Part shown: positions 4,381 to 17,374 of the stretch, piece after piece
How positions within the stretch are numbered: the stretch's first letter is position 1
Layout of the letters: every line of letters starts with the position of its first letter
IMG/VR virus record: IMGVR_UViG_3300022752_000463
Coordinates: 1 to 21,048 of that record
Length of the DNA stretch: 21,048 nt
Source: a virus
Direction: 5' to 3' (one strand)
The notes under the pieces: generated by a model
The model's database searches: none
Seen by the model: only the letters and a program-made list of their open reading frames with translations
What the model was told of the DNA's origin: nothing
Program-made: the position numbers and the translations under genes

Positions 4381-5169
4381 TCAGAAGGGGATTTTTCCGT
4401 CAATCGAGTCGCCAAGCTCCGACTCGTGTTTGATTTTCACTTCCCCACGGCTCACGGACTCTGCAAATTGCTTTGCAGGCATGTAAACCGAGGCAATTTG
4501 TTCAGAAGGAATAGAGCCAATACGCTCAATCTCCCAACCGTACCACTTGCCTTTGTCATTGCTTTCCTGCAAGGTCGTCAGCCGATACATCTGGCTATAT
4601 ATCGGTGGTGTATACGGGCCGTTCTTGCCCATCAACTTCACCGACATCATCATTGAATTCCACTTCCTGGACTTCTTCAGTTGTGTGGACTTCATGACGA
4701 TCAACGCAGGGGTCGGGATGCCATCGTCACTTACCACCATCACGTAGTGATTAGCGGTGTTTTCGATGTAGTTCCCATTATCCAAATAGTCCTTGTTGTC
4801 ACCCGATATGCGGTGGGTGCGGCTAAGGATATCGGACGTTGCTGAGTAGATCTGCACAGGCGCGCCCGATGAACCGCTGCCACGCGGTGCCCACTCAATG
4901 TACTGCCGTACGTAGGCGGTCGGAACGACGACCAAGCCTTTCTTGCCATCGAAAAGCTCTTGGGTCACTGTGTTGAAGATCATCCCAGGCATAGCACCTT
5001 CAACAACACCGATTTCATCGGAATTGTTGGTCAGTGCTTTTAAAAACGGAAGAGCAAAATCGCTCTTATCCATTTGCTCAAGACCCGCGCCTGCATCCGC
5101 CTCGAAGGCTTCGACGATTGCGATTGCAGTTGTCGTGGGTTTTACTGTTGCTACTTCACCTTTTGCCAT
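4381..5169 (-). CDS. Putative single-stranded DNA-binding protein
   Basis: 262 aa with no signal peptide or membrane segment. The N-terminus is Ala-rich. The middle is rich in beta-type and aromatic residues, for example GLVVVPTAYVRQYIEWAPRG and KNGPYTPPIYSQMYRL, which suits an OB-like nucleic-acid-binding fold but does not prove it. The last 13 residues, SELGDSIDGKIPF, are acidic then end in Ile-Pro-Phe. This resembles the tip of bacterial SSB (DDDIPF), which docks partner proteins, and the acidic tails of phage SSBs such as T7 gp2.5. The gene lies directly upstream of primase, helicase and polymerase, where phages often place their SSB. ATG at 5169 has AAGGAA 8 nt upstream. I know no exact family, so the call rests on tail and context; another recombination or replication accessory protein is possible. 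Confidence 0.55.
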   Translation of the reverse strand: MAKGEVATVKPTTTAIAIVEAFEADAGAGLEQMDKSDFALPFLKALTNNSDEIGVVEGAMPGMIFNTVTQELFDGKKGLVVVPTAYVRQYIEWAPRGSGSSGAPVQIYSATSDILSRTHRISGDNKDYLDNGNYIENTANHYVMVVSDDGIPTPALIVMKSTQLKKSRKWNSMMMSVKLMGKNGPYTPPIYSQMYRLTTLQESNDKGKWYGWEIERIGSIPSEQIASVYMPAKQFAESVSRGEVKIKHESELGDSIDGKIPF

Positions 5170-5192
5170 GATTCAATTTCCTTGGTTCGTGA

Positions 5193-5741
5193 TTACGTTG
5201 ACTTAATGCTTGCTTTGTTGCCGATGTACACGCCGAATAATTCGGTTGGTACTTCACGCCCCTTGGTCAGCATCTCTTTGACCCAGGCCTTTAAGGTCTG
5301 GGGTTCTATCTTCTCGTTCTGCTCAGCGGGAAAGCCTTGCGTAGCGAGGAGACCCAGTAGACGAGCACAAAGCTCGTCTTCGCGACGGCCAAACCGCACC
5401 GTCACAGTGTTTTTGATGATGTCATCGTAGCCATGCTCACGCAGCCATGCATAGGCTTCAGCCTGCCGAGCCTTGCTGATGGTTGCGCTGTAAAACTGCT
5501 TGACTTCGATCTTGCTGCCATCATCCATTGCAAAAGACTTGAGCCCCAACTCTGCGAAAGCCTCGGGCAGTGATTCTTCCGTCAGCTTTCGGTAGTTGTC
5601 TTGCTTTTCCGAGAGCGAAGTCTCAAGCTCCTCGATCTCCTTTTCCAAGAGTTTGGCACGCTTGGCGAGCTGGGCAATGCCAGCAAGCTTGTCGTCTGCC
5701 ACTTGCAGGGCACCAGCGTCTTGTTCAAAAACTTCACTCAT
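5193..5741 (-). CDS. Conserved-type phage replication-module protein with N-terminal coiled coil, function unknown
   Basis: 182 aa from ATG 5741, which has a strong SD (AGAAAGGAGAAA) a few bases upstream. The frame is open up to 5798 but that part lies inside the preceding gene. Residues about 18-60 form a likely coiled coil rich in Leu, Lys and Glu (AKLLEKEIEELETSLSEKQ). A compact part follows with ESLPEAFAELGLKSFAMDDG, then YSATISKARQAEAYAWLREHG and IIKNTVTVRFGRRED, and an end rich in TLKAWVKEM and VPTELFGVYIG. From memory, phage early regions carry proteins of this build (helical N-terminus, then a DDG-K turn, WLREHG, IIKN), but no function is established that I can name. It overlaps the upstream small gene by 8 bp and sits 23 bp before the putative SSB gene. 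A Gam-like DNA-end protector is a weak alternative suggested only by the coiled coil. Confidence 0.85.
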   Translation of the reverse strand: MSEVFEQDAGALQVADDKLAGIAQLAKRAKLLEKEIEELETSLSEKQDNYRKLTEESLPEAFAELGLKSFAMDDGSKIEVKQFYSATISKARQAEAYAWLREHGYDDIIKNTVTVRFGRREDELCARLLGLLATQGFPAEQNEKIEPQTLKAWVKEMLTKGREVPTELFGVYIGNKASIKST

Positions 5742-6066
5742 AAATTTCTCCTTTCTGTGGAAACAAATCAACCTGGATCGGAATGTACCGACGCTCAAGC
5801 TTATCCCATTTCAGGCACTTATACCTTCCATGGTTTCGGCTTGCCGCCACGGCGCTCACAATGCTAATTGCCGTGGGATCCCCGATGAAGAGCAGGTAGT
5901 CATCATCGGTGAATTTTTCCAACCGTCGTTGCACGCGTGCTACGGTGGGGGCCACCGAAAAGGACACTTGCACGTTGTTGGGTAAAAGCACTTCAACTTC
6001 GCCGAAGTCCAAAGCGGAAGAGATATTGTGCTGACCGGTCTCGGTCACAGCGTAAACTTTTGGCAA
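5734..6066 (-). CDS. Small phage early protein, function unknown (TTG start)
   Basis: 110 aa, first gene of the leftward replication operon. I take TTG at 6066 as the start because the SD AAAGGAG lies 7 nt upstream and no good ATG exists in frame; GTG at 6048 is a poorer choice. Visible features are an N-terminal VYAVTETGQHNISSALDFG, a central FTDDDYLLFIGDP, then AISIVSAVAAS and GRYKCLKWDKLERRYIPI. The YLLFIGDP...LKWD..RRYIP arrangement recalls small proteins often seen in early regions of aquatic phages, but I cannot assign a family name. It has no membrane segment, and no enzyme motif is recognised. It is translationally coupled to the next gene by an 8-bp overlap. Its leading position suggests early expression. 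Confidence 0.82.
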   Translation of the reverse strand: MPKVYAVTETGQHNISSALDFGEVEVLLPNNVQVSFSVAPTVARVQRRLEKFTDDDYLLFIGDPTAISIVSAVAASRNHGRYKCLKWDKLERRYIPIQVDLFPQKGEIYE

Positions 6067-7600: not shown

Positions 7601-8283
7601 TTCCGATTCGCCCGTTATACAGGTATGAAGTGCTTACTCGGTATGACGGAGCTGAGGGCCGCACTTATGGTGATCAAAAGTTGCCTAGCGTGACGCGCAT
7701 TCTGGATGAAACCAAGGACAAGGCAAAATTAGAGGAATGGAAACAACGCGTCGGGGAAGAGGAAGCGGAGCGCATCAAAAACAATGCAGGTGCCGTTGGA
7801 ACATATATGCATAGTGTGATTGAGCGGATGGTGGCTTTCCGAGACCTAGGTCGGCCCACAAACTGGGAGATGATCAAAGGCTACGAAATGGGCTATCGCT
7901 TGATCAATGAGCAGTTCAAAGACATCGATGAGATCTGGGGCTCGGAAGTCACCCTGTTCATCCCGAATCGCTATGCAGGGACCACGGACATGGTTGGGGT
8001 GTACAAGGGCAAGTCAGCGATTATTGACTTTAAGCAATCCAATAAGCCTAAACGCCATGAATGGATCACGGATTACTTTCACCAGCTCTCGGCCTACGCG
8101 CTTGCGCATGACTATCAGTTTGGCACGGAAATTGAGATGGGTGTGGTGATGATGGCGATGCAATCCGGTGGTACGCAGGTCTTTACGACCACCGGACGGG
8201 AGTTTAACCAGTATAAGACCGGCTGGCTTGAGCGCGTGGAGAAGTACTACCGCAATATGGCATCAAACGGGAAGAGCCTTTGA
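7588..8283 (+). CDS. PD-(D/E)XK nuclease, RecB/Cas4-type exonuclease
   Basis: 231-aa predicted DNA exonuclease. Signature residues in order: LPSVTRIL (32-39), GTYMHSVIERM with H75 (RecB-type His motif), acidic E120 (GSEV), D134 in GTTDMVGVYKG, the catalytic D147-F-K149 in AIIDFKQSNK, and Q166..Y170 in YFHQLSAYA. This is the order found in RecB, Cas4 and phage PD-(D/E)XK exonucleases. The four-Cys iron-sulfur cluster of many Cas4/AddB proteins is absent. ATG 7588 has GAGGAG 8 nt upstream and lies inside the SNF2 gene end. The pairing suggests a helicase-nuclease working together at DNA ends, perhaps for recombination or genome processing, comparable in role to T7 gp6 exonuclease. The last 37 bp overlap the convergent virion gene on the other strand. 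Confidence 0.92.
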   Translation: MVDLIPIRPLYRYEVLTRYDGAEGRTYGDQKLPSVTRILDETKDKAKLEEWKQRVGEEEAERIKNNAGAVGTYMHSVIERMVAFRDLGRPTNWEMIKGYEMGYRLINEQFKDIDEIWGSEVTLFIPNRYAGTTDMVGVYKGKSAIIDFKQSNKPKRHEWITDYFHQLSAYALAHDYQFGTEIEMGVVMMAMQSGGTQVFTTTGREFNQYKTGWLERVEKYYRNMASNGKSL

Positions 8284-11200
8284 AGCATTTCCCTTGCCTG
8301 GGGCTGCGGTTGCCCTTGAGCCTGGGGGCGTCCTGGTTGGGGGCGCTGCGCGAAACTGCTTAACAGCCCACGAGAGGGTGGTGCAGCAGGGAGTTTTGCC
8401 CGCAGCCGTTGCGCTGCTGCTTGAGCCATGGTTGGTGGTGCAGGCTGCTCGGGCTCTTGCTCACCGGCAGTCAAGCCAGTGTTGATCAAATAGCCCCTAA
8501 GCATTTTTGCAAACTGGATTTTTTGCTCCTCAGTGCGCCCTTTTCTAAGCAACTGAACCATGAAACCGGGCTCTTGAGCAGCGCGCTCTAACAACGCACG
8601 GACGCTTTCGTTAGGTAGTTTATCTAACATTTCCCGCATCATCCGCGATCCAGCCGATGCGGCCAGTAGCGTCGATCCACCTTCCGCAAGCCCCGCACCC
8701 ATACGAGCACCTACTACACGAAGCATCAAGTCTTCAACCATATCAGAGCTATCAAGAACTCGATCGAGGACCTGCTTGTTGCCCATCACTGCTTGAACAC
8801 GAGACAGCTCGCCAATAAGCTTTTTGACATTAGCAAGTTCGCCGCGCTGCATAACGCCAGTGTCCACGAGGAGATCTGCCATCGAAGGGCGACCCGTGGA
8901 GGTAGGCTTAAAGAAGGCATCGTAGTACTGCTGGAAGTCCAACTTTTCTGCGCCGCCCGCTTTCATGTAGGCGTAGTCGTAGATGCCTGACTTAAGCGCA
9001 TCGACAAGATCTTGATTGACCTGCGTGCTCACATCAACGCCAGCGGCTTTGAGGCGTGCGATCTCTTCTGGGCTTTTCATGCCCGTGCGTGCAGCCTGCA
9101 CAAGACGGCGGAAGTTTTCTGCTGGGTTTTTGCTGTTGAGGGCGTCTGACACAACGCGCGCAGGGCTTTCATCAAAAAACTTAACAAAAGTCGCTTGTTT
9201 CCTCAGTTTTGTTTCAATGGCGCTGTTCTGCTTTTGGATCAGATCCAATGCATTTTGTGCGCGCGTGGCATTCTCAAGATCCTGGCGCAACCCAGGGATA
9301 CCGTTGACTAGATTTTCATTTTCGTTCAACCAACGTGACAGCCTGCCCGTGTTGAGCTTACCCGTCGCAGGATCAATTGAAGCGGCAGCAGCAAGGCGCG
9401 TGCCTCGTTCAACAGCATCCGATGTAGACACCGCGCGCGGCCCAGCGCGGTTGACGGCATCTTCAAGGATCCTGGCCCGTGGGTCATTAGGTCCGAAGTC
9501 TGCAACGTATTGATTGTGCAAACGAGGCAGCATATTAACCGCGTTTTGGATTTGCTCCATGCGGGCGTTGATGACATCGGCGTTGCCGCTAAAGGCCCGT
9601 GAGACAAGAATCTCGGGAATAATACGATCCGCTCCAGTACGTGTCACAGCGCGCATGTCTCCCGCAAAGGTGCGGGTAAAGCTGTCGTTGAGTTCCTTGG
9701 AAAAGGCCCGCGCTGCATCGTAGGCAGGATTGCGAACCTGATCCATGTCATCGAGCAATGCTTCAGAGAACTTGGAGTAGAAGGCGTAATTAGCACGCTC
9801 ACCTCTTGCTTCTGCGTCCATGGCCAAACGAAGCATGTCGCGACGTGCATTGACCAAATCGCCTACGTTGATCGCGCCACGACGGACAAAGTCTTTGCCC
9901 GCTTCAATAAGCTCTTTCTTTGTGTCTTCGACCTGTCCTTTCATGCCCGCATAGGACAAATCTTTCTTTGTGATGGTTGAGAACTGGCGCTGAAGCGTCT
10001 GATAAGCGTCGTACAAATCAGGGTTGGACTCTTGACCAAACTTCAATAATTGATCAGGGGTGAGGTTTTTGACATTCTGTGCTTTGGAAAGACGTCCGTA
10101 AATGTCTTTGACGATTGCAGGAAACTCCCGGTTATAGTATTCGGGAGACATCTCCGATCGGATCGTGTCAAATTGCTTAGTGAAGTTGCTTGCAACAACT
10201 GCTTGTCCATCGGTTAGACGTGTGACGGCAGCGCGAATTTGATCGCGACTCGCCCCTTGTTTACGCATGTTTGCGACGGTCTCGTTGACCTGAGCGCGGA
10301 TTGCCTTGGGCACGTCGGTCCAAAGCGTGTGCTCCACTTCGCGAGCGTCTTTCAAAGCTGCATCGACGTTCTCTCGGATCACACGTCCAATCTGCAAACG
10401 ATTAGCAGGGGTGTCTTTTGTAATATTTGCAATAGCAACTGCCGCTCTTGCATCCGCATTTGCAAGACGCCCTTCAAGTAACTGGCGAAAATAATCTGCT
10501 CGCAAGCGTGCTGCATCTTGAAGCGCGGTGGGATCACCCGATCGATTCAAGACGTTGATCATCTCAACAATCGCCTCTTGAGCTTTCCTGCCCTGCTCAG
10601 CAACTTTGGGGCCGAAGACGTCATTTTGCCTAGCCAGTGATGTCTCAAGAATCGTTAAAGGTAAATCGCCCGTCTTCTGAGCAGCAGTCATACCAGGAAC
10701 AATGCCTGGGTCACGCAGCGCTTTAATGAGATTCGGCAAATAATCCTTATTGAATTCCTCAGCCCATTTGTCTGGATCACTTGCTCGAAGCTCGGGCTTG
10801 TATTGATCTTGAAGAATAGTGGCAAGTCGATTGGCGGCTCGTGTCTCATTTGCACCAGTCGAAAACCGAGACAATACTTTGCGAGAAAGGTCCACGACCA
10901 AACCCCCGCCATACATGATTAACCTATTAGGGCTGAAGAGCCCTCCGGCTATTTCTCCTGTTATGCGTGGTGCAGTTTGCCCTGGAGCCAAACCCTCTGC
11001 GATACCTGCCCCAACGCCTGAGCCAATAGATGCTTGCGTTTCTAGCACACCATAAAGAATAGGATGTTTCTTTGCGTAGCCTCCGACTTTATTTAAAAAG
11101 TCTAAGACGCGAACGCCTGTGGATGGGTTGATGGTGTAGCCCAAAGGCAAAAAGGCAAGACCGCCGCCCGTAGTCTTTCCAGCTTCACGAAAAGGTTTTA

Positions 11201-11585
11201 AGTCTGGGTCGGTCTGCTCATCAAAAAGACGCTTAGTGGTCTCTTCACCAATCTGTCCGCCACCAATGAGTCCTGCTCCAGCGCCAAGCAAAGTGCCAGC
11301 CACCGTTGTATAGGGTTGTCCAAAAGGAATTCTTGAGCTTGCTGCAAAGCCTGTGCGTGCGCCACCATAAGCACCCAAGGCAGCGGGCGACTGCTCAACA
11401 AGTCCTGAAACAAGCCCTTTAGCGTACTCCGATGCAAGATCTGTAAACCCTGGTTCAGGGGATGCTTCGCTGGAAATGCTTCCAATATCCCCTTTCGTCG
11501 GTGCATCGGGGTTGAGCTGGAACTCAGTCGGTCTAGCACCAGCAGGGCTGGAGATACTGTCAATGCTAAGCGGTTTATCAGCCAT
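8247..11585 (-). CDS. Large virion structural protein, probably internal or ejection protein
   Basis: 1112 aa, the longest gene here and the last of the virion operon. The N-terminal 50 residues look disordered. Residues about 60-110 and 135-235 hold Gly/Ala-rich hydrophobic stretches (TLLGAGAGLIGGGQIG; GGLAFLPLGY; SGVGAGIAEGLAPG) that could insert in membranes. The bulk (about 240-1020) is a long helical region rich in Ala, Arg, Asp and Asn without enzyme motifs that I recognise. The C-terminus is Pro/Gln-rich (PQPGRPQAQGQPQPQ) before a short hydrophobic end. Size, helicity, glycine zippers and last position resemble podovirus internal core or ejection proteins such as T7 gp16, but I see no transglycosylase motif. 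ATG 11585 has AGGGG as SD, overlapping the stop of the 671-aa gene. Its stop lies 37 bp inside the nuclease gene on the other strand. Confidence 0.8.
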   Translation of the reverse strand: MADKPLSIDSISSPAGARPTEFQLNPDAPTKGDIGSISSEASPEPGFTDLASEYAKGLVSGLVEQSPAALGAYGGARTGFAASSRIPFGQPYTTVAGTLLGAGAGLIGGGQIGEETTKRLFDEQTDPDLKPFREAGKTTGGGLAFLPLGYTINPSTGVRVLDFLNKVGGYAKKHPILYGVLETQASIGSGVGAGIAEGLAPGQTAPRITGEIAGGLFSPNRLIMYGGGLVVDLSRKVLSRFSTGANETRAANRLATILQDQYKPELRASDPDKWAEEFNKDYLPNLIKALRDPGIVPGMTAAQKTGDLPLTILETSLARQNDVFGPKVAEQGRKAQEAIVEMINVLNRSGDPTALQDAARLRADYFRQLLEGRLANADARAAVAIANITKDTPANRLQIGRVIRENVDAALKDAREVEHTLWTDVPKAIRAQVNETVANMRKQGASRDQIRAAVTRLTDGQAVVASNFTKQFDTIRSEMSPEYYNREFPAIVKDIYGRLSKAQNVKNLTPDQLLKFGQESNPDLYDAYQTLQRQFSTITKKDLSYAGMKGQVEDTKKELIEAGKDFVRRGAINVGDLVNARRDMLRLAMDAEARGERANYAFYSKFSEALLDDMDQVRNPAYDAARAFSKELNDSFTRTFAGDMRAVTRTGADRIIPEILVSRAFSGNADVINARMEQIQNAVNMLPRLHNQYVADFGPNDPRARILEDAVNRAGPRAVSTSDAVERGTRLAAAASIDPATGKLNTGRLSRWLNENENLVNGIPGLRQDLENATRAQNALDLIQKQNSAIETKLRKQATFVKFFDESPARVVSDALNSKNPAENFRRLVQAARTGMKSPEEIARLKAAGVDVSTQVNQDLVDALKSGIYDYAYMKAGGAEKLDFQQYYDAFFKPTSTGRPSMADLLVDTGVMQRGELANVKKLIGELSRVQAVMGNKQVLDRVLDSSDMVEDLMLRVVGARMGAGLAEGGSTLLAASAGSRMMREMLDKLPNESVRALLERAAQEPGFMVQLLRKGRTEEQKIQFAKMLRGYLINTGLTAGEQEPEQPAPPTMAQAAAQRLRAKLPAAPPSRGLLSSFAQRPQPGRPQAQGQPQPQAREMLQRLFPFDAILR

Positions 11586-11593
11586 GAAAGCCC

Positions 11594-13609
11594 CTAGTTG
11601 CGAACTCTAAATTGGCCCGTTGGAACGTACAAGAATTCAGTGCCTGGAGGAAGCTTTGCGGCTTCTTCCACGGATTGAACGCGAACGGGCAAGCCCATCA
11701 TGTTGCGAAGATTCTTAATTTCTTGAACTTTAAGATTAGCTTCTCGCCTAAACTCAGGACCCAAGCTGGTGTCTCTAGACTTTTTCTCTGCGCCAGTCAT
11801 GATGCCCGTGAGCACATCATCGATGGCAATAAGCCTGTTTTGAAAAGCAGCAGGCCGGTCAATATACCCAGGTAAGAGGTTGAGACTTTCCTGAATATCT
11901 TTACGTTCATCGTTGCTTAAACGCGCGGTTTCTTGCAGTCCCTTAACAATCTGCTTAACAGAATTAGTTATCGCGGTTACTGAACGTTCGTATTTTGGGT
12001 CAACAATACCACCAATAACAGGAAGGCTGAAAATATCTGCTCGAAGCTTGTTTAAGGGACCCGTGCCTGTCCGGGCAAGATTATAAAGTGTAGGTGGTCC
12101 AATCACAGCGGCATCAGAGGTAGTAGGTGCTTGCGCTGCACTCAACGCCTGAGTCGAAGCAGGCGCTGCACCAGGAGTAGCAGCGCCTAGGGCCGTGGTC
12201 GGTGGTGCGGCACCAGGAGCCGTGGTCGGTGGTGCGGTAACCAAGGGCCGTGTTCCAAGGGCCTTGGCCCGCGAGCGAACGGCCTCTTCTAGAGTAGGAG
12301 TCAGTTTGTTTTGCCTGTAGCCTATAGTTATGGTCTCGCCACTTACAGCGTCTTTACCTTTTTCTTCTGTGACTTGAGTGTAATCTCTTATTGCTAGCTC
12401 TAAGGCCATCGTGTCCGCAGTATTCTCTCCCGCAGCAAAACTTGCGATGACCGTTGGGTTTGACATCAAAGCCATGCGTTTAGCCGGTGTGAGCCCTGCA
12501 TCAGGCCTTGGCCTACTGGCCCTTATGCGTTCAAGCTCTTCTTGTGTATCGCCCTTAAGGATGTCTCGACCTAGCTGCTGCAACATGCCTTCACGTTTTA
12601 ACAAAGCGGCACGCTCCGACTCGCGCTCTTTCTCTGCGGCCTGGATACCTAAGAGCTTGATCTGTTGCGCCATCTTCTCTGCTTCCGAAGCACGCGCACC
12701 AATCTGCGCTGGAAGCTGGCTGGCAGCACCCGCAAGACGAGCAGCGAAAGAACCCCTAAGCGGTTGCCCCGTGCGTGGATCCACATTTCCGGCCAATGCA
12801 AGACCTGCTCCTGCTAAATCAAAAAGCATTTGGGCTTGAGTAAGGCCTTTGTCTTGCCCAAGCAACCTTTGATACATCTGCGTCGCATCGGCTACGCGGG
12901 ACTCCATGGTCTTTGTACTGGTGGTAGCCGGAGCAAAGACATCAAACAGGGCCTTTTTAGCTGCCTCACGTTGTTCAGGAGTCAACAGGCGAGAGGCAAT
13001 GCCCAGATTCGTTGTTGAGGCTACTCCTTGAGATGGTTCACTGTCATCGGCTTCGACGCCATCTTCGTCGGAGCCATCTCTAAAATTTTGGACATACCCT
13101 CCCCGAGCCATACCCATCGGGGCCTGTGGTCCTTGGGCCGTGGGCAATGAACCAATGCCCCCTGGTGGCATGCCATCCGGTGGCATGGGCGGCGGACCTT
13201 GGGGAGGAGGCATGGGTGGTGCAGCACCTTCCGGAGGCATAGGCGGCGGACCTCCGGCAGGAGGCATTGGAGGAGCGCCCGCAGGCATGCCCTGAGGCAT
13301 GGGCTGTTGGCCTGCAAGCACGGGCTGTAGCAATGCAAGTACTTCGGGAGGGGTTTGCTGCGCAGCGTTGTAGCCCACCATGTCAGCAAGCTCCTCGAAC
13401 CGCGCATCAACCGAGCGAACATCGCCTCGTAAGTTATTCATGAGGATCTCAGGCGAATCAGGGTGGCGGTCCATGAGCATTGCCATGTCCGCTTCATCGC
13501 CATCATCCTCCGTGTCGTCTTCACCCATCAAAAGCGACATGATTCCAACTTCGTCGGGATCTAACTTTTTGCCCTGAAATAAGGGGCGATCTAGCACTTT
13601 AGATTTCAT
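11594..13609 (-). CDS. Virion-associated protein with acidic N-terminus and Met-Pro-rich repeats
   Basis: 671 aa from ATG 13609; GTG at 13612 is directly adjacent, but the AAGGA SD spaces better to the ATG. Residues 30-45 are strongly acidic (EDDTEDDGDEAD). Residues 102-150 form a low-complexity Pro/Met/Gly tract with repeated PPMPP units. At 167-179 stands MARGGYVQNFRDG, a short signature also echoed in the 666-aa protein. The middle is helical (AQMLFDLAGAGLALAGN, QLPAQIGARASEAEKMAQQIKLLGIQ), followed by an Ala/Thr/Pro linker with a repeated PTTAPGAA-like unit, and a folded-looking C-terminal part ending in PPGTEFLYVPTGQFRVRN. No enzyme motif is seen. It lies between two other large structural genes with gaps of 8 and 9 bp, so a virion or assembly role is inferred; the exact place in the particle is unknown. 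Confidence 0.8.
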   Translation of the reverse strand: MKSKVLDRPLFQGKKLDPDEVGIMSLLMGEDDTEDDGDEADMAMLMDRHPDSPEILMNNLRGDVRSVDARFEELADMVGYNAAQQTPPEVLALLQPVLAGQQPMPQGMPAGAPPMPPAGGPPPMPPEGAAPPMPPPQGPPPMPPDGMPPGGIGSLPTAQGPQAPMGMARGGYVQNFRDGSDEDGVEADDSEPSQGVASTTNLGIASRLLTPEQREAAKKALFDVFAPATTSTKTMESRVADATQMYQRLLGQDKGLTQAQMLFDLAGAGLALAGNVDPRTGQPLRGSFAARLAGAASQLPAQIGARASEAEKMAQQIKLLGIQAAEKERESERAALLKREGMLQQLGRDILKGDTQEELERIRASRPRPDAGLTPAKRMALMSNPTVIASFAAGENTADTMALELAIRDYTQVTEEKGKDAVSGETITIGYRQNKLTPTLEEAVRSRAKALGTRPLVTAPPTTAPGAAPPTTALGAATPGAAPASTQALSAAQAPTTSDAAVIGPPTLYNLARTGTGPLNKLRADIFSLPVIGGIVDPKYERSVTAITNSVKQIVKGLQETARLSNDERKDIQESLNLLPGYIDRPAAFQNRLIAIDDVLTGIMTGAEKKSRDTSLGPEFRREANLKVQEIKNLRNMMGLPVRVQSVEEAAKLPPGTEFLYVPTGQFRVRN
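12192..12237 (-). repeat. Two 19-bp direct repeats in a Thr/Ala/Pro linker
   Basis: GCCGTGGTCGGTGGTGCGG occurs at 12192-12210 and 12219-12237, period 27 bp or nine codons, encoding the repeated PTTA.GAA-type linker of the 671-aa protein. An in-frame duplication is the simplest origin. Confidence 0.8.
13160..13306 (-). repeat. Low-complexity Met-Pro-Gly coding repeat
   Basis: This stretch encodes residues 102-150 of the 671-aa virion protein. Degenerate units of the form PPMPP(E/D/A)G recur about five times, and on the plus strand related GGCGGCGGACC and GGCATGGG blocks recur. The tract is probably a flexible, extended linker, with repeat number liable to change by slippage. Confidence 0.8.
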
Positions 13610-13618
13610 CACTATTCC

Positions 13619-15370
13619 TTACATAAGCCCGACTTTTTTAGCTCCCGCTGCCGCAGAAATACCCGCAATTCCAAGTCCCGCTGCTGTTTGGAAGGGGCTT
13701 GCAGCAGGTTGACTTGATGCGATCAACGAACTCTGCGTGCTAGGGGCCCCTCTGTATATATCCGAAACGTACGCAAGCTGTTGGTAAGGAGCTATCGTAT
13801 CTTGCATACTGGTTGCTCGAATGGCGTCAAGCTGTGCTTGTTTATTGGCCTGTTCCATCGCTCCAATGCTCATCATCGTACTGACATCAGCTTGGCCTAG
13901 TTGAGAAGCTGCTTGACCAAGCGCTGCTTGCTGTGTTCCAAGCTGGCCCATGGCAGCTCCCGACTGATTGAGAACACCTGCGCGTTGCAGGTCAATACCC
14001 GCGCGCTGCGCGGCTAATGAACCAACGCCTTGGCCAAGGGTTCCATAAAGACCCGCACGTTGCGCATCAATGCCTGCTTGTGCTTGAGCAATTTGTGCAG
14101 GCAACATACCCCCAAGCTGGGCTTCTTGCGCACCTAAACTGCCCGCTAACTGCACGCCAGCCTGCCCGAGCTGCGCTTGTTGGATATTCTGTTGCCCTCT
14201 CAAGCCTCCAATACCTTGCATGGCAGAAGCCTGTTGGAGCGCTTGTTGTTGCTTGGTCTGCTCAAGTTGCGCCATCTGCATGGCCGTATTAGCATCAAAT
14301 CCGGCCTGCTGGAATCGCTGCGCGGCAGCTTGTAGGCCAAGTTGCGCTCCCTGCACACCGTATTGTTGATTAGCCTGTCCAGCAGCAATTTTTGCTTGTT
14401 GTTCGGCGTTAAATTGTTGTTGAGCTTGCTGATACGCCTGCTGTAAACCAGTCGCTTGGATGTCGCCTAGCTGTGTAGCCAGATTACGCCGTGCTTCTGC
14501 CTCAACGACACCTTCTCTTGTTCCGCCAAAAGCACCGGAACGTACCGCTTGCGCTGCACGTCCTTGTCTTGCAATGGCGTCTTGACGTAGGGCCTCACGG
14601 GTTTGGATGTCCACCACATTTTGCATGTAGGGAGACATCATGCTTGCTGCGGTTCCCGGAGCAGCAAACGACGAGGTGTTTATTTTTCCACTAGGTCCTA
14701 CGCCTTGTGCGGCAAGAGCCGCTTCTTGCGAGGCTAGTCCAGCCGTACCCATGGCTCCGGTTAAGGTTCTTTGGGCTGGGCTAAAGTTAGAGGGACCTGC
14801 TGTCTGTAGGATGTTGTAAGCTTGATTAATTGCTTCGTTAGAGCGGCCAAGGTCTGCTTGTAGGTAATCATTAAGGCCCATTCGAGCCCCTTGGATGGCA
14901 CCAATGCCCGAACGTACCTCGTCAAGGCCTTGGCCTGCGAGCGTGCTGTACCTAGAGAGCTGGCCCGCTGCCCCTAAGCCTGCGCTCATGGCATCTTGTG
15001 CAGACTTAAATTCAGGGGCCACGTCTAAACGTGCGGCAAGTTCCGCACCTTGTTGCGTGAGCGCTTGTCCTTGGGAAATGCCTTGAGAGCCTGTGTTTAA
15101 ATAATTCGCGTAGGCACCAATGCCTTGCCGTGCAAGATCTCCAGCTTGGATTTGCCCCGCTGACGGTCCCGCTACTTCATAGGCAGGAAGATCAAGGGGC
15201 ATGTTGTAGAGTTGACGAGCTTCTTCAATAAGCCCCAACCGATACGCTGCAATCCTCGGGTCTTCAGCGGTATAGCCTACTTGATACTGAACATTACTCC
15301 CCGCAGGTAGCCCTGGAAGAGGCCCTGTTATAGCACCTGGAGCAGTGCTCAACCCAGTTGTCGTACTCAT
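13619..15370 (-). CDS. Ala/Gln-rich helical virion protein, probably internal or tail-associated
   Basis: 583 aa, dominated by Ala, Gln and Gly, and almost wholly predictable as helix. The best landmark is residues 245-295: MSPYMQNVVDIQTREALRQ, then RAAQAVRSGAFGGTREGVVEAEARRN. An NPY/SPY..V.D followed by GAFGG(T/S)R is a pattern I recall from structural proteins of many tailed phages. After it come heptad-like Gln/Ala repeats (QQAYQQAQQQFNAEQQ) and a repeated AGIDAQRAGLYG / AGIDLQRAGVLN unit at about 430-470. The C-terminus is hydrophobic and Gly/Ala-rich (LGIAGISAAAGAKKVGLM). ATG 15370 has AAGGGA 6 nt upstream, inside the end of the 666-aa gene. An internal core or ejection-type protein fits, in the role of T7 gp14/gp15; tail-fibre assembly is less likely. 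Confidence 0.8.
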   Translation of the reverse strand: MSTTTGLSTAPGAITGPLPGLPAGSNVQYQVGYTAEDPRIAAYRLGLIEEARQLYNMPLDLPAYEVAGPSAGQIQAGDLARQGIGAYANYLNTGSQGISQGQALTQQGAELAARLDVAPEFKSAQDAMSAGLGAAGQLSRYSTLAGQGLDEVRSGIGAIQGARMGLNDYLQADLGRSNEAINQAYNILQTAGPSNFSPAQRTLTGAMGTAGLASQEAALAAQGVGPSGKINTSSFAAPGTAASMMSPYMQNVVDIQTREALRQDAIARQGRAAQAVRSGAFGGTREGVVEAEARRNLATQLGDIQATGLQQAYQQAQQQFNAEQQAKIAAGQANQQYGVQGAQLGLQAAAQRFQQAGFDANTAMQMAQLEQTKQQQALQQASAMQGIGGLRGQQNIQQAQLGQAGVQLAGSLGAQEAQLGGMLPAQIAQAQAGIDAQRAGLYGTLGQGVGSLAAQRAGIDLQRAGVLNQSGAAMGQLGTQQAALGQAASQLGQADVSTMMSIGAMEQANKQAQLDAIRATSMQDTIAPYQQLAYVSDIYRGAPSTQSSLIASSQPAASPFQTAAGLGIAGISAAAGAKKVGLM

Positions 15371-15373
15371 AAC

Positions 15374-17374
15374 TTATCCCTTACGCCCTTCAAGCATTTT
15401 CATGAGTGAGTAAAGCCGTTTTGCGCCTTTTCTCCGAGAGCCATTACCAATGGAGCGCACTGCTTTGGCTGTGAAAACAAACTCCCCATCAGACAAAAGC
15501 GCGGGTATAGAGTCAGAAGTCCCGGTTCCAGGCCCGCTGATATGTCCTTGTTTCTTAGGGTAAGTTGTTCCACCTATTTCCAGAGACATGATCCCCCCTT
15601 TTGCAGCCCTAGTAGGCAGCGGCAGTTGATATTGAGGCGGGGTCCGTGGCCCATAGCCCCTGGATCCTAAAAGACCACCAAAAGTCAACGGTCTAGCATA
15701 AGCTGGGTTGAACATGTCCATAGCTGCAAGGTCAGGTGCAGCAGCCGGTTTGGTTTTAAACCCGCCCAGGGCTGCGGTTCCGACGAGTGCTGCTGCGGCC
15801 ATAGGGCCGTAAGTGGAAAGTATCCCAGGTTCAAAGCGCTTAGCGACCTCTAAAATCTCTTTTGTAACAGGAGCATCAGCAGGAAGCCCCATTAGATTCT
15901 TAGCTTTACCAATAGCCTCGGTGAGTCCTGCTTCTGCCCGAGCAGCAGGAGAAAGGCTTCTATACATGCCTTCCAGGTCGAGGTTTTTTGCTGACTCAAA
16001 AAACCCAGGGGCGGGCTGTTGAGCCGCTCCTAGATCTAAGGTTTGATATTGAGAGTAGGAAATTGGTTTTCCATCTAAAAGAACTTGGGGCTCAGGGGCA
16101 ATAAACGCACTTTGATTGCCAGCTGAAAGAGACTTAGGGGCAATAAACGCACTTTGATCGCTTATTGAAAGAGGTTCATAAGGAAGAGACATCCTTCCAC
16201 CAGCGGGGGCAACAGAAAGAGGAGTTTTAACGGGAAGAGGTTCATAAGGACGGTCTAGGACAGAAGCCTCCGTCCCTCCTGCGGGTGTAAACCCTTGGCC
16301 TGGAGCATAAGACCCTGCTCCATTGTTCATTTGAATACCCACTAATTCATCGGGAGCAAGGCCCCCTGTAACAGTACTAGGAAAATTAGCCATAGCCTCA
16401 ACATTAGCCAATGCCCCCGGTTGTGCGCCTCCAGGTGTAATACTCACCGTATCTGGCCCCGTCGGAGTTCCGCTAGGCGTCACAAGACGGTTAAATTGTT
16501 CGCCTACGGTTGTGCCGCCTGTATAAGAACCCGTATCAAACGATCCTCCAGAGACGCCCGAAAGCGCACCTGCGGTAATACCGCCTACCGCTCCTGCCTT
16601 CACCGCATCTTTAAGATTTCCTCCAGCAAGTAGCGTTGATCCTGCGCTACCGACAAAGCCCATGGTGGCTGCAACACCTATTTCAGACGTAACCCCCAAC
16701 TCAAAAGCGGCTGCTGGACCTAAAAAATATCCCAACGCAACCGTTGTAATGATCTTGCCTACCGTGCTACTTGCAAACTTCTTAACGGCCTTCGCAATAT
16801 TGCTAAAAATATTCCCGTATTCCGGCAGTCCTGTAACGGGGTTAATCGTTCCTGCACCGCCCATACGCTTGAGCATCGCCGCTTCATCCGGCGTAATGTG
16901 CGCAAGCATGGTGTCGCCATGCCGACCGTATTGGGCAAGAGAAGCTAGACCACCTTGGGCCATTTTTGAAGGGGACTCAGGCCTTTCTACCGTCATTTGA
17001 TCAAGCGCCATGTTCAATGCGCCAAAGAATGTAGGATCAAATTGCTCCGGTAGCAGATCCTCTGTTACCCCACGACGCATGTATTCACGGCGTAATGCAG
17101 GGTAGTCACGAGGGTTGGCTAAAATGAGATCTATCATCTCATTAAGCATGGTCAAAGTGTCTAAAGGCACCTTTAAAGCCCTTAGCTCATTAACAAAATT
17201 GTTAACAGTGCTTGGGTCTACTTGTGCGCCAGCGCTAAGTAACTCGTCCCCAAATTGCTTGGGCGGGATGTTTTGGCGCATTTCCTCGTAAACAGCCATC
17301 TGCTCGGGGCCTACGGCTGGTTTAGGGGCACTACCCGCTTGGGGAAGCGCCATAATACCTTGCATTTCTTCCAT
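15374..17374 (-). CDS. Phage structural protein with GDTM..HITP and SDSIPA..SDGEFV motifs
   Basis: 666 aa. The N-terminal 130 residues are helical, with YPALRREYMRRGVTEDLLPE then QFDPTFFGALNMALDQM. MAQGGLASLAQYG (138-150) leads into RHGDTMLAHITPDEAAMLKR (151-170) and GTINPVTGLPEYG (175-187). A hydrophobic Gly/Ala-rich region with possible membrane-active helices spans about 205-275. A Pro/Ser-rich middle holds repeated QSAFIAP and PYEPL units. The C-terminus has KGGIMSLEIGG (592-602), GPGTGTSDSIPALLSDGEFV (about 614-633) and a basic tail. I recall the GPGTGTSDSIPA..SDGEFV and GDTM.AHITP motifs from structural proteins of many environmental phages, where their role is not settled. ATG 17374 has AGGAAAGG 7 nt upstream and follows a structured 86-bp leader. 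A tail or ejection-complex role is inferred from position. Confidence 0.82.
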   Translation of the reverse strand: MEEMQGIMALPQAGSAPKPAVGPEQMAVYEEMRQNIPPKQFGDELLSAGAQVDPSTVNNFVNELRALKVPLDTLTMLNEMIDLILANPRDYPALRREYMRRGVTEDLLPEQFDPTFFGALNMALDQMTVERPESPSKMAQGGLASLAQYGRHGDTMLAHITPDEAAMLKRMGGAGTINPVTGLPEYGNIFSNIAKAVKKFASSTVGKIITTVALGYFLGPAAAFELGVTSEIGVAATMGFVGSAGSTLLAGGNLKDAVKAGAVGGITAGALSGVSGGSFDTGSYTGGTTVGEQFNRLVTPSGTPTGPDTVSITPGGAQPGALANVEAMANFPSTVTGGLAPDELVGIQMNNGAGSYAPGQGFTPAGGTEASVLDRPYEPLPVKTPLSVAPAGGRMSLPYEPLSISDQSAFIAPKSLSAGNQSAFIAPEPQVLLDGKPISYSQYQTLDLGAAQQPAPGFFESAKNLDLEGMYRSLSPAARAEAGLTEAIGKAKNLMGLPADAPVTKEILEVAKRFEPGILSTYGPMAAAALVGTAALGGFKTKPAAAPDLAAMDMFNPAYARPLTFGGLLGSRGYGPRTPPQYQLPLPTRAAKGGIMSLEIGGTTYPKKQGHISGPGTGTSDSIPALLSDGEFVFTAKAVRSIGNGSRRKGAKRLYSLMKMLEGRKG
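16094..16158 (-). repeat. Two 23-bp direct repeats encoding QSAFIAP units
   Basis: A 23-bp sequence occurs identically at 16094-16116 and 16136-16158, period 42 bp (14 codons), inside the 666-aa structural gene. Two 14-bp copies of GAGGTTCATAAGGA (16171-16184 and 16237-16250), encoding PYEPL, flank the pair on one side. This marks recent in-frame duplication in the Pro/Ser-rich linker. Confidence 0.85.

Follow-up and report, generated by a model that had tools for sequence, protein, structure and literature searches.

Two late proteins of a virus, P4 and P2, harbour short peptides built around a pair of glycines, which raises the question of whether these peptides constitute one shared signal and, if so, whether that signal serves docking or processing. 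The window analysed here is the whole viral record of 21,048 bases, and its late strand is transcribed in the order lysozyme, a 625-aa protein, two smaller proteins, P4, P3, P2 and P1. P4 (666 aa; 15374..17374, minus strand) is a tape-measure-like or ejection protein by its PHROG matches and by its homologue in phage DSL-LC04, which is annotated as tail tape measure protein. P3 (583 aa; 13619..15370, minus strand) resembles a DNA ejection protein weakly in PHROG (E 0.0015) and lacks the [MF]AxGG motif, P2 (672 aa, a 672-codon ORF; 11594..13612, minus strand) is an unnamed late-cluster protein without a PHROG match, and P1 (1112 aa; 8247..11585, minus strand), which lacks the motif, has a DSL-LC04 homologue annotated as DNA transfer protein. 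The 625-aa protein belongs to phrog_3287 (virion structural) and its DSL-LC04 homologue is annotated as stabilization protein. Past P1 come genes for a helicase of the SNF2 type and for a nuclease-like protein, on the opposite strand, and replication genes.

DSL-LC04 is the nearest named phage among those found, and its genome is described in the passage cited as assembled from lake water; HTVC023P-type pelagiphages, which the cited passage of their authors places in the Podoviridae, are more distant from the window. The gene order around P4 is probably that of a short-tailed (HTVC023P-like) phage. PHROG and Pfam revealed no tail-tube family among the eight late ORFs of the window, which does not include the head/tail region, and no gene is named tail tube in the DSL-LC04 annotation; in Venkman, a phage with only the N-terminal block of P4 described below, two genes are annotated as tail tube A and tail tube B. 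The cluster resembles that of P22-like podovirus ejection proteins in that P4 and P2 follow a stabilisation-protein gene and are accompanied by the ejection-like P3 and the DNA-transfer-like P1, but differs in that no ejection family of Pfam or PHROG matches P2 or the body of P4. From gene order, weak family matches and homologue annotation we infer that P4 and P2 are virion or ejection proteins. Passages cited in this analysis are from PMC11445458, PMC10611076, PMC9599517, PMC13033339, PMC10038345, PMC3224144, PMC7291167 and PMC8954989.

The three peptides, one in P2 and two in P4, are all found where the original prediction had placed them: motif 1, MAQGGLASLAQYG, at P4 residues 138-150 (16925..16963, minus strand), motif 2, MARGGYVQNFRDG, at P2 residues 168-180 (13073..13111, minus strand) and motif 3, AAKGGIMSLEIGG, at P4 residues 590-602 (15569..15607, minus strand). 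The start it gave for the whole feature, 13097, falls inside the motif 2 peptide, and the two genes, described as neighbouring, are separated by the 583-aa gene P3 (13619-15370). That the peptides follow linkers holds for P2, with a Pro/Met/Gly-rich linker at approximately residues 100-165, and only partly for P4, in which motif 1 comes after a confidently predicted helical region (residues 23-127).

Conservation and range of the motif

As first worded, K, R or Q before GG and a large hydrophobic residue, the motif is not enriched: 2000 within-protein shuffles of the window's 16 ORFs lead one to expect 2.4 sites where 3 were found (P = 0.44). The pattern likewise stays at chance level in DSL-LC04, HTVC010P, HMO-2011, lambda and the part of Venkman that was scanned. 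The residue before GG is free, being K, R or Q in 47 of 85 distinct P4 sequences around motif 1 and another residue in 38, and K/R/Q was rejected as part of the motif. Preceded by alanine, A[KRQ]GG[ILMVFYW], a pattern picked only after the peptides were known, gives 3 sites against 0.31 expected (P = 0.0015).

What is conserved is a different set of positions. In the 85 P4 segments (drawn from 100 ORFs after leaving out identical segments and those with fewer than 40 residues upstream), GG is followed by L, I or V in every case, and alanine stands two residues before GG in 84 and directly after the hydrophobic residue in 84; this invariance defines the P4 motif as [MF]AxGG[ILV]A. All four glycine codons are in use at both positions of the pair, which is counted in support of selection acting at the protein level.

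The slightly wider form [MF]AxGG[ILVYPFM] occurs in 123 of the 156 relatives of P4 and in 40 of the 72 of P2. Six other late genes, with 454 relatives in all, have it in none (P1 0/18, P3 0/121, P5 0/79, P6 0/63, P7 0/150, lysozyme 0/23), so that in these relatives it is restricted to two of the window's eight late genes. Among the remaining 441 of the 1123 unique ORFs counted in the relatives' loci it is found twice, and one of these two carries the N-terminal block of P4. Expected numbers from shuffling are about 5.9 for P4, 1.1 for P2, 2.9 for P3, 1.5 for P7 and 1.2 for the others. Selection favours the P4 figure, since many loci were fetched by blocks beside the P4 motif (the 80 best of 553 and the 80 best of 590); P2 and the other genes were not picked in this way. 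The strict pattern itself was sharpened after looking at the data. The proposed motif search of the proteome and its relatives has left the form as worded at chance and yielded a sharper [MF]AxGG form that is restricted and conserved, and a shared short signature is supported. The feature is real, conserved and wider than the original prediction had it. Among the papers listed in a literature search, with most subscription papers outside it, no title or abstract start describes an [MF]AxGG motif.

P2 carries the motif as an isolated conserved stretch, MAxGGxVQxF..G, inside a variable linker. Among the 67 relatives of P2 with 230 aa or more, 37 have the strict form; of the other 30, eight read M[KY]xGG[ILY]VQ[NRH]F and 22 have another sequence or leave the site uncovered. 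A PDB search with the P2 profile gave nothing convincing (best E 0.086).

Two further sites had gone unmentioned before, GGIGSLP in P2 and GIM near both N-termini (P2 residues 23-25, P4 residues 6-8). GGIGSLP (P2 residues 151-157; 13142..13162, minus strand), a second GG site 20 residues upstream of motif 2, is nearly invariant in 14 close P2 relatives and weaker in the wider set, with commonest-residue frequencies for GGIGSL of only 0.32-0.62 in 68 P2 rows. GIMSL (P2 residues 23-27; 13532..13546, minus strand) has commonest-residue frequencies of G 0.97, I 0.96, M 0.81, S 0.50 and L 0.75. Its counterpart GIMAL (P4 residues 6-10; 17345..17359, minus strand) follows a pattern, GI[MA][SATD]L, that 82 of 153 P4 relatives contain within residues 1-40, against only 9 of 70 P2 relatives. 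The shorter G[ILV][MAG][SAD]L has 6 sites in the window against 0.52 expected and is also present in 97 of 121 P3 relatives; 136 of the 154 sites there read G[IL]G[AS]L, in sequence rich in Ala and Gln, and the pattern was therefore not counted as the same motif.

DSL-LC04 has five strict sites in 3 of 87 ORFs (0.35 expected; none of 200 shuffles as high), a check also made over 84 of its 85 annotated genes: two in P4, one in P2 and two in a PcfJ-like protein encoded between the terminase and portal genes. Thirteen relatives of the PcfJ-like protein were found, and all nine with a covered N-terminus carry both FA[MV]GGPVGQ and MA[DL]GGL[VI]DI, six of them also FAEGGE. A 114-aa protein near the portal gene of DSL-LC04 has a looser YAKGGLVTS close to its end, and its 100-aa counterpart has a site of this type in 9 of 13 PcfJ-like loci. 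P4 (L119) and the PcfJ-like gene (L211) occur together on contig 3300032318_001383. In lambda the sole strict [MF]AxGG ORF of 69 is the tape-measure protein gpH (0.17 expected), with FATGGF at residues 733-738 of 853, about 115 residues before the end, and YATGGY 45 residues further on; in HMO-2011, of which 50 kb of 55 were covered, the sole one of 67 ORFs is gp25, a protein of the late cluster rich in Ala and Gln (0.21 expected). With one match each against such expectations, these two are suggestive only. No strict motif was found in HTVC010P or in the portion of Venkman that was scanned.

P4 modules and their link to tape-measure proteins

Motif 1 begins a 48-residue N-block (P4 residues 138-185; 16820..16963, minus strand) that is near-invariant in alignments of 15 and 62 rows, with the consensus MAxGG[ILV]AxL...GRxGDTMLAHITPxEAAxLKxxGGxGTINPxTGLPE and at least 553 relatives among the 600 viral stretches listed. 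Upstream of GG only [MF]A is conserved and downstream the conservation runs for about 40 residues. Venkman gp46 and ctz7E20 keep the core of the block without AxGG. A PDB search with the N-block profile gave nothing convincing (best E 0.91).

Motif 3 opens a C-terminal module (GPGTGTSDSIPALLSDGEFVFTAKAVR) common to siphophage tape-measure proteins, with the consensus AxGGIMxL..GG.TYPRKxGxIxGPGTGTSDSIPAxLSDGEFVFTAKAVR. P4 matches ten PHROG families, seven of them named tape measure and all through this module, which is present in 986 phage records at E≤0.1 and in two PDB sequences named tape measure protein: 8zdo, with two module copies and a length of 1,699 aa, that given for the Douge tape measure, and 8rk3, whose 1,158 aa is the length of the JBD30 tape measure. 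P4 thus has the C-terminal GPG..SDSIPA.LS.GEFV module of siphophage-type tape measures, and the relationship does not extend over the full length, for approximately residues 590-665 alone match the PHROGs and most of the phage records. The match to the DSL-LC04 homologue covers 57% of the query.

Ten siphophage regions were fetched from 60 records listed of the 986, and nine have the module by pattern. Directly upstream of it seven of nine have GGx[VI]xGPG, and seven of nine have AxGG within 25 residues, the strict [MF]AxGG being found in only three. The longer P4 layout recurs in one of the nine, Vibrio phage Vpas_PP24 (ASGGLMGSFPRKGRFISGSG...SDSIPAM), and the Cherrybomb426 module has no GG upstream. 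GG and a hydrophobic residue lie within 50 residues upstream in 73 of 120 distinct C-modules; for stretches taken at random from these proteins the figure is 470 of 1726. Polar residues are common after GG (GGD, GGE, GGS). JBD30 gp46, Douge gp16 and lambda gpH share with P4 a GPG..SDSxxAx.S.xEF module that is preceded immediately or at a short distance by GG or AxGG, the match for gpH being weak (10.7 bits). P4 differs from such tape measures in its length of 666 aa, its helical N-terminal region, a second, distinct AxGG block and a gene order that is probably of the short-tailed type.

The AlphaFold models of P4 improved with the alignment, from a poor one (15 rows, mean pLDDT 50.5) to one with a mean pLDDT of 61.7 (62 rows), in which the helical region at residues 23-127 is well predicted. 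Both motifs lie at low confidence, with pLDDT below 50 at residues 588-617 and, bar two residues, at 138-157, stretches that are read as probably disordered. After motif 3 a hook is predicted, consisting of strands 624-626 and 633-635 and helices 636-642 and 647-663, with a mean pLDDT of 54 at residues 621-630, which makes the first strand weak, and of 76-86 at 631-660; the tape-measure-type module with this predicted hook spans P4 residues 610-663 (GHISGPGTGTSDSIPALLSDGEFVFTAKAVR...KMLEG; 15386..15547, minus strand). A fold search with the P4 model gave nothing in the PDB at E≤0.001 and one uncharacterised viral protein at 5.6e-4. JBD30 gp46 has a comparable predicted hairpin-helix hook, for its authors, in the passage cited, predict two helices and a short hairpin at tape-measure residues 1022-1066 and suggest, after T5, that the hook holds the tape-measure chain in the baseplate; the module match of P4 on this protein spans residues 1003-1056. 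According to the cited passages, cryo-EM of JBD30 and Douge resolved only the last few tens of tape-measure residues, and the hook is therefore a prediction in both.

Docking, joint or cleavage site

In the proposed mechanism, [MF]-A-x-G-G-hydrophobic is a short linear motif that two members of the ejection (pilot) cluster carry in stretches resembling linkers. The AxGG peptides would dock P4 and P2 to one shared site on the particle or the delivery channel, and the P4 peptide would lead into a hook that anchors the chain. Such a reading fits a linker-stretch peptide that unrelated proteins of one cluster have, in some cases in tandem, and that in tape measures lies beside a predicted hook. 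The peptides also have what is expected of a short linear docking motif, conservation confined to an island within variable, disordered sequence of non-homologous proteins, the disorder being low AlphaFold confidence in P4 alone. Counted against docking are the polar residues after GG in the C-module, the three of nine siphophage modules with the strict form, the 30 of 67 P2 relatives without it, the lack of the motif in HTVC010P and scanned Venkman, the N-blocks of Venkman gp46 and ctz7E20 without AxGG, and the weak first strand of the hook. On balance, the reading that the peptide docks or anchors ejection and tape-measure-like proteins, with a putative partner common to both, has about an even chance of being correct.

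Another explanation, possible but less probable, is that there is no common signal and GG is a flexible joint before conserved modules, the two P4 sites having arisen by an old duplication and the P2 site as a convergent linker. The earlier view that the likeness does not reflect homology of whole domains is indeed only half right, since both P4 sites lead conserved blocks that may be distant copies; P2 and P4 were not grouped together in the searches made. The N- and C-blocks have a common 11-residue core in register (DTMLAHITPEE / DSIPAxLSxGE), and HTVC023P gp79, which reads DTMLAQLADGEFV, has half of each block and looks intermediate. Against the podovirus C-blocks alone the N-block scores 11.6, which is not significant, as 9.5% and 5.8% of 137 decoys score as high. 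When siphophage tape-measure sequences are added to the C profile it scores 16.8 and 17.6 (best C-side decoys 14.2 and 14.2), and when the bridging HTVC023P row is dropped, or only siphophage sequences are used, 14.4 and 15.2 (best C-side decoys 13.1 and 12.3), exceeding all 137 C-side decoys in these four profiles. One of 137 N-side decoys, however, scores 15.7, above two of the four N-block scores, and the hhalign probability never exceeds 18.1%; an early comparison that included the motif aligned only 15 motif residues, at 14.6%. Because the bridging row was chosen for resembling both blocks, their homology is held as no more than probable: the two P4 blocks may be old copies of one module, with a detection that depends on the sequences added. 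The polar residues tolerated after GG in the C-module also suit a plain joint, but a free linker would not be expected to keep both flanking alanines in 84 of 85 segments or to recur in the PcfJ-like and 114-aa proteins.

Cleavage of P4 and P2 at GG, by which a protease would separate domains at maturation, is unlikely. In its favour, cited passages report for lambda and T5 that the tape-measure protein is cut while the tail is being assembled, the FATGGF of gpH lies about 115 residues before its end, and DSL-LC04 genes are annotated as ATP-dependent protease and peptidase M15A-like. The T5 site, by the passage cited, follows an Arg, the passages cited give no cleavage site for gpH, the conserved side of the N-block is the one downstream of GG, and no Pfam protease family was found among the 16 ORFs of the incomplete window. 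As conservation continues past GG and no such family was matched, cleavage fits less well, and the processing half of the original proposal gained no support. The shared feature is real, and a docking or anchoring peptide is more likely than a cutting site.

Chance likeness of glycine-rich linkers, with which the numbers for the [KRQ]GG form would agree, is very improbable for the refined motif in view of its conservation and restriction. An internal start at MA(R/Q)GG, giving the N-terminus of a second, shorter product, would suit the Met that precedes Ala in 60 of 85 N-blocks, but Phe replaces it in the other 25, on which ground this most improbable of the readings was rejected as largely refuted. 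In a double-glycine (C39) leader, GG closes a short N-terminal leader; this candidate was ruled out, as the motifs begin at residues 138, 168 and 590 of proteins of 666-672 aa.

Known targeting peptides and significance

Capsid-targeting sequences of T4 internal proteins are short peptides common to unrelated packaged proteins. The docking peptide proposed here may be compared with them as a short peptide in unrelated proteins, the PcfJ-like copies lying near the N-terminus, and differs in that the P4 and P2 motifs are internal and that no sign of cleavage was found for them. The cargo-loading peptides of encapsulins are short, Gly/Ile/Leu-rich, serve docking and are mostly terminal; GGIGSL appears superficially like them, at an internal site of P2.

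Tape-measure and ejection proteins build the DNA channel across the cell envelope, and their recruitment and retention are poorly understood. A motif and a hook common to a probably short-tailed aquatic phage and to long-tailed phages, perhaps including lambda, would link two delivery machines. The motif would offer a few residues to mutate and could assist in picking out ejected or packaged proteins among genes whose function is unknown. More tentatively, and with considerable doubt, [FM]AxGG-hydrophobic may be an unrecognised recruitment motif of tailed phages by which tape measures, podovirus ejection proteins and some head-cluster proteins (the PcfJ-like and 114-aa proteins) would dock to a common partner in the particle or in the delivery channel. 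If so, proteins could join the ejected set by gaining a few residues.

Early genes and features of P2, P3 and P4

Three early genes at 4381-6066 of the window gave Pfam matches to families named after gp34, gp33 and gp32 of phage Pam3. P3 (13619-15370) is rich in Ala, Gln and Gly, and its relatives with long matches range from 294 to 876 aa in length. The sequence GIM is conserved close to the N-termini of both P4, the 666-aa tape-measure-like protein, where it falls at 17345-17359, and the 672-aa P2, where it falls at 13532-13546.

AxGG-type motifs in other phage proteins

A PcfJ-like gene, flanked by terminase and portal genes, is found in phage DSL-LC04 (L188:10344-12821) and at the related loci L204-L216; its product carries three tandem [FM]AxGG-type repeats close to the N-terminus (four in L205), beyond which the relatives diverge, as seen when L213 was compared with L204. 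HTVC103P gp79 (L016:6136-7431), which adjoins the portal gene, has MATGGLMNM, ATGGLMKM and a tape-measure-type C-module. In the lambda tape-measure protein gpH (L219:10542-13103), GEFVFTKEATSRIGVGNLYRLMRG is bracketed by FATGGF and YATGGY and matches the C-module weakly (10.7 bits).

Distribution of the P4 blocks

In HTVC023P gp79 (L014:16792-17742), DTMLAQLADGEFV joins the cores of both P4 blocks. The GDTxLAH...GGSGTINPxTGL block of P4 lies at the N-terminus of shorter, ejection-like proteins devoid of AxGG in Venkman (gp46, L190:13959-14867) and ctz7E20 (L191:7932-8993), and therefore looks mobile.
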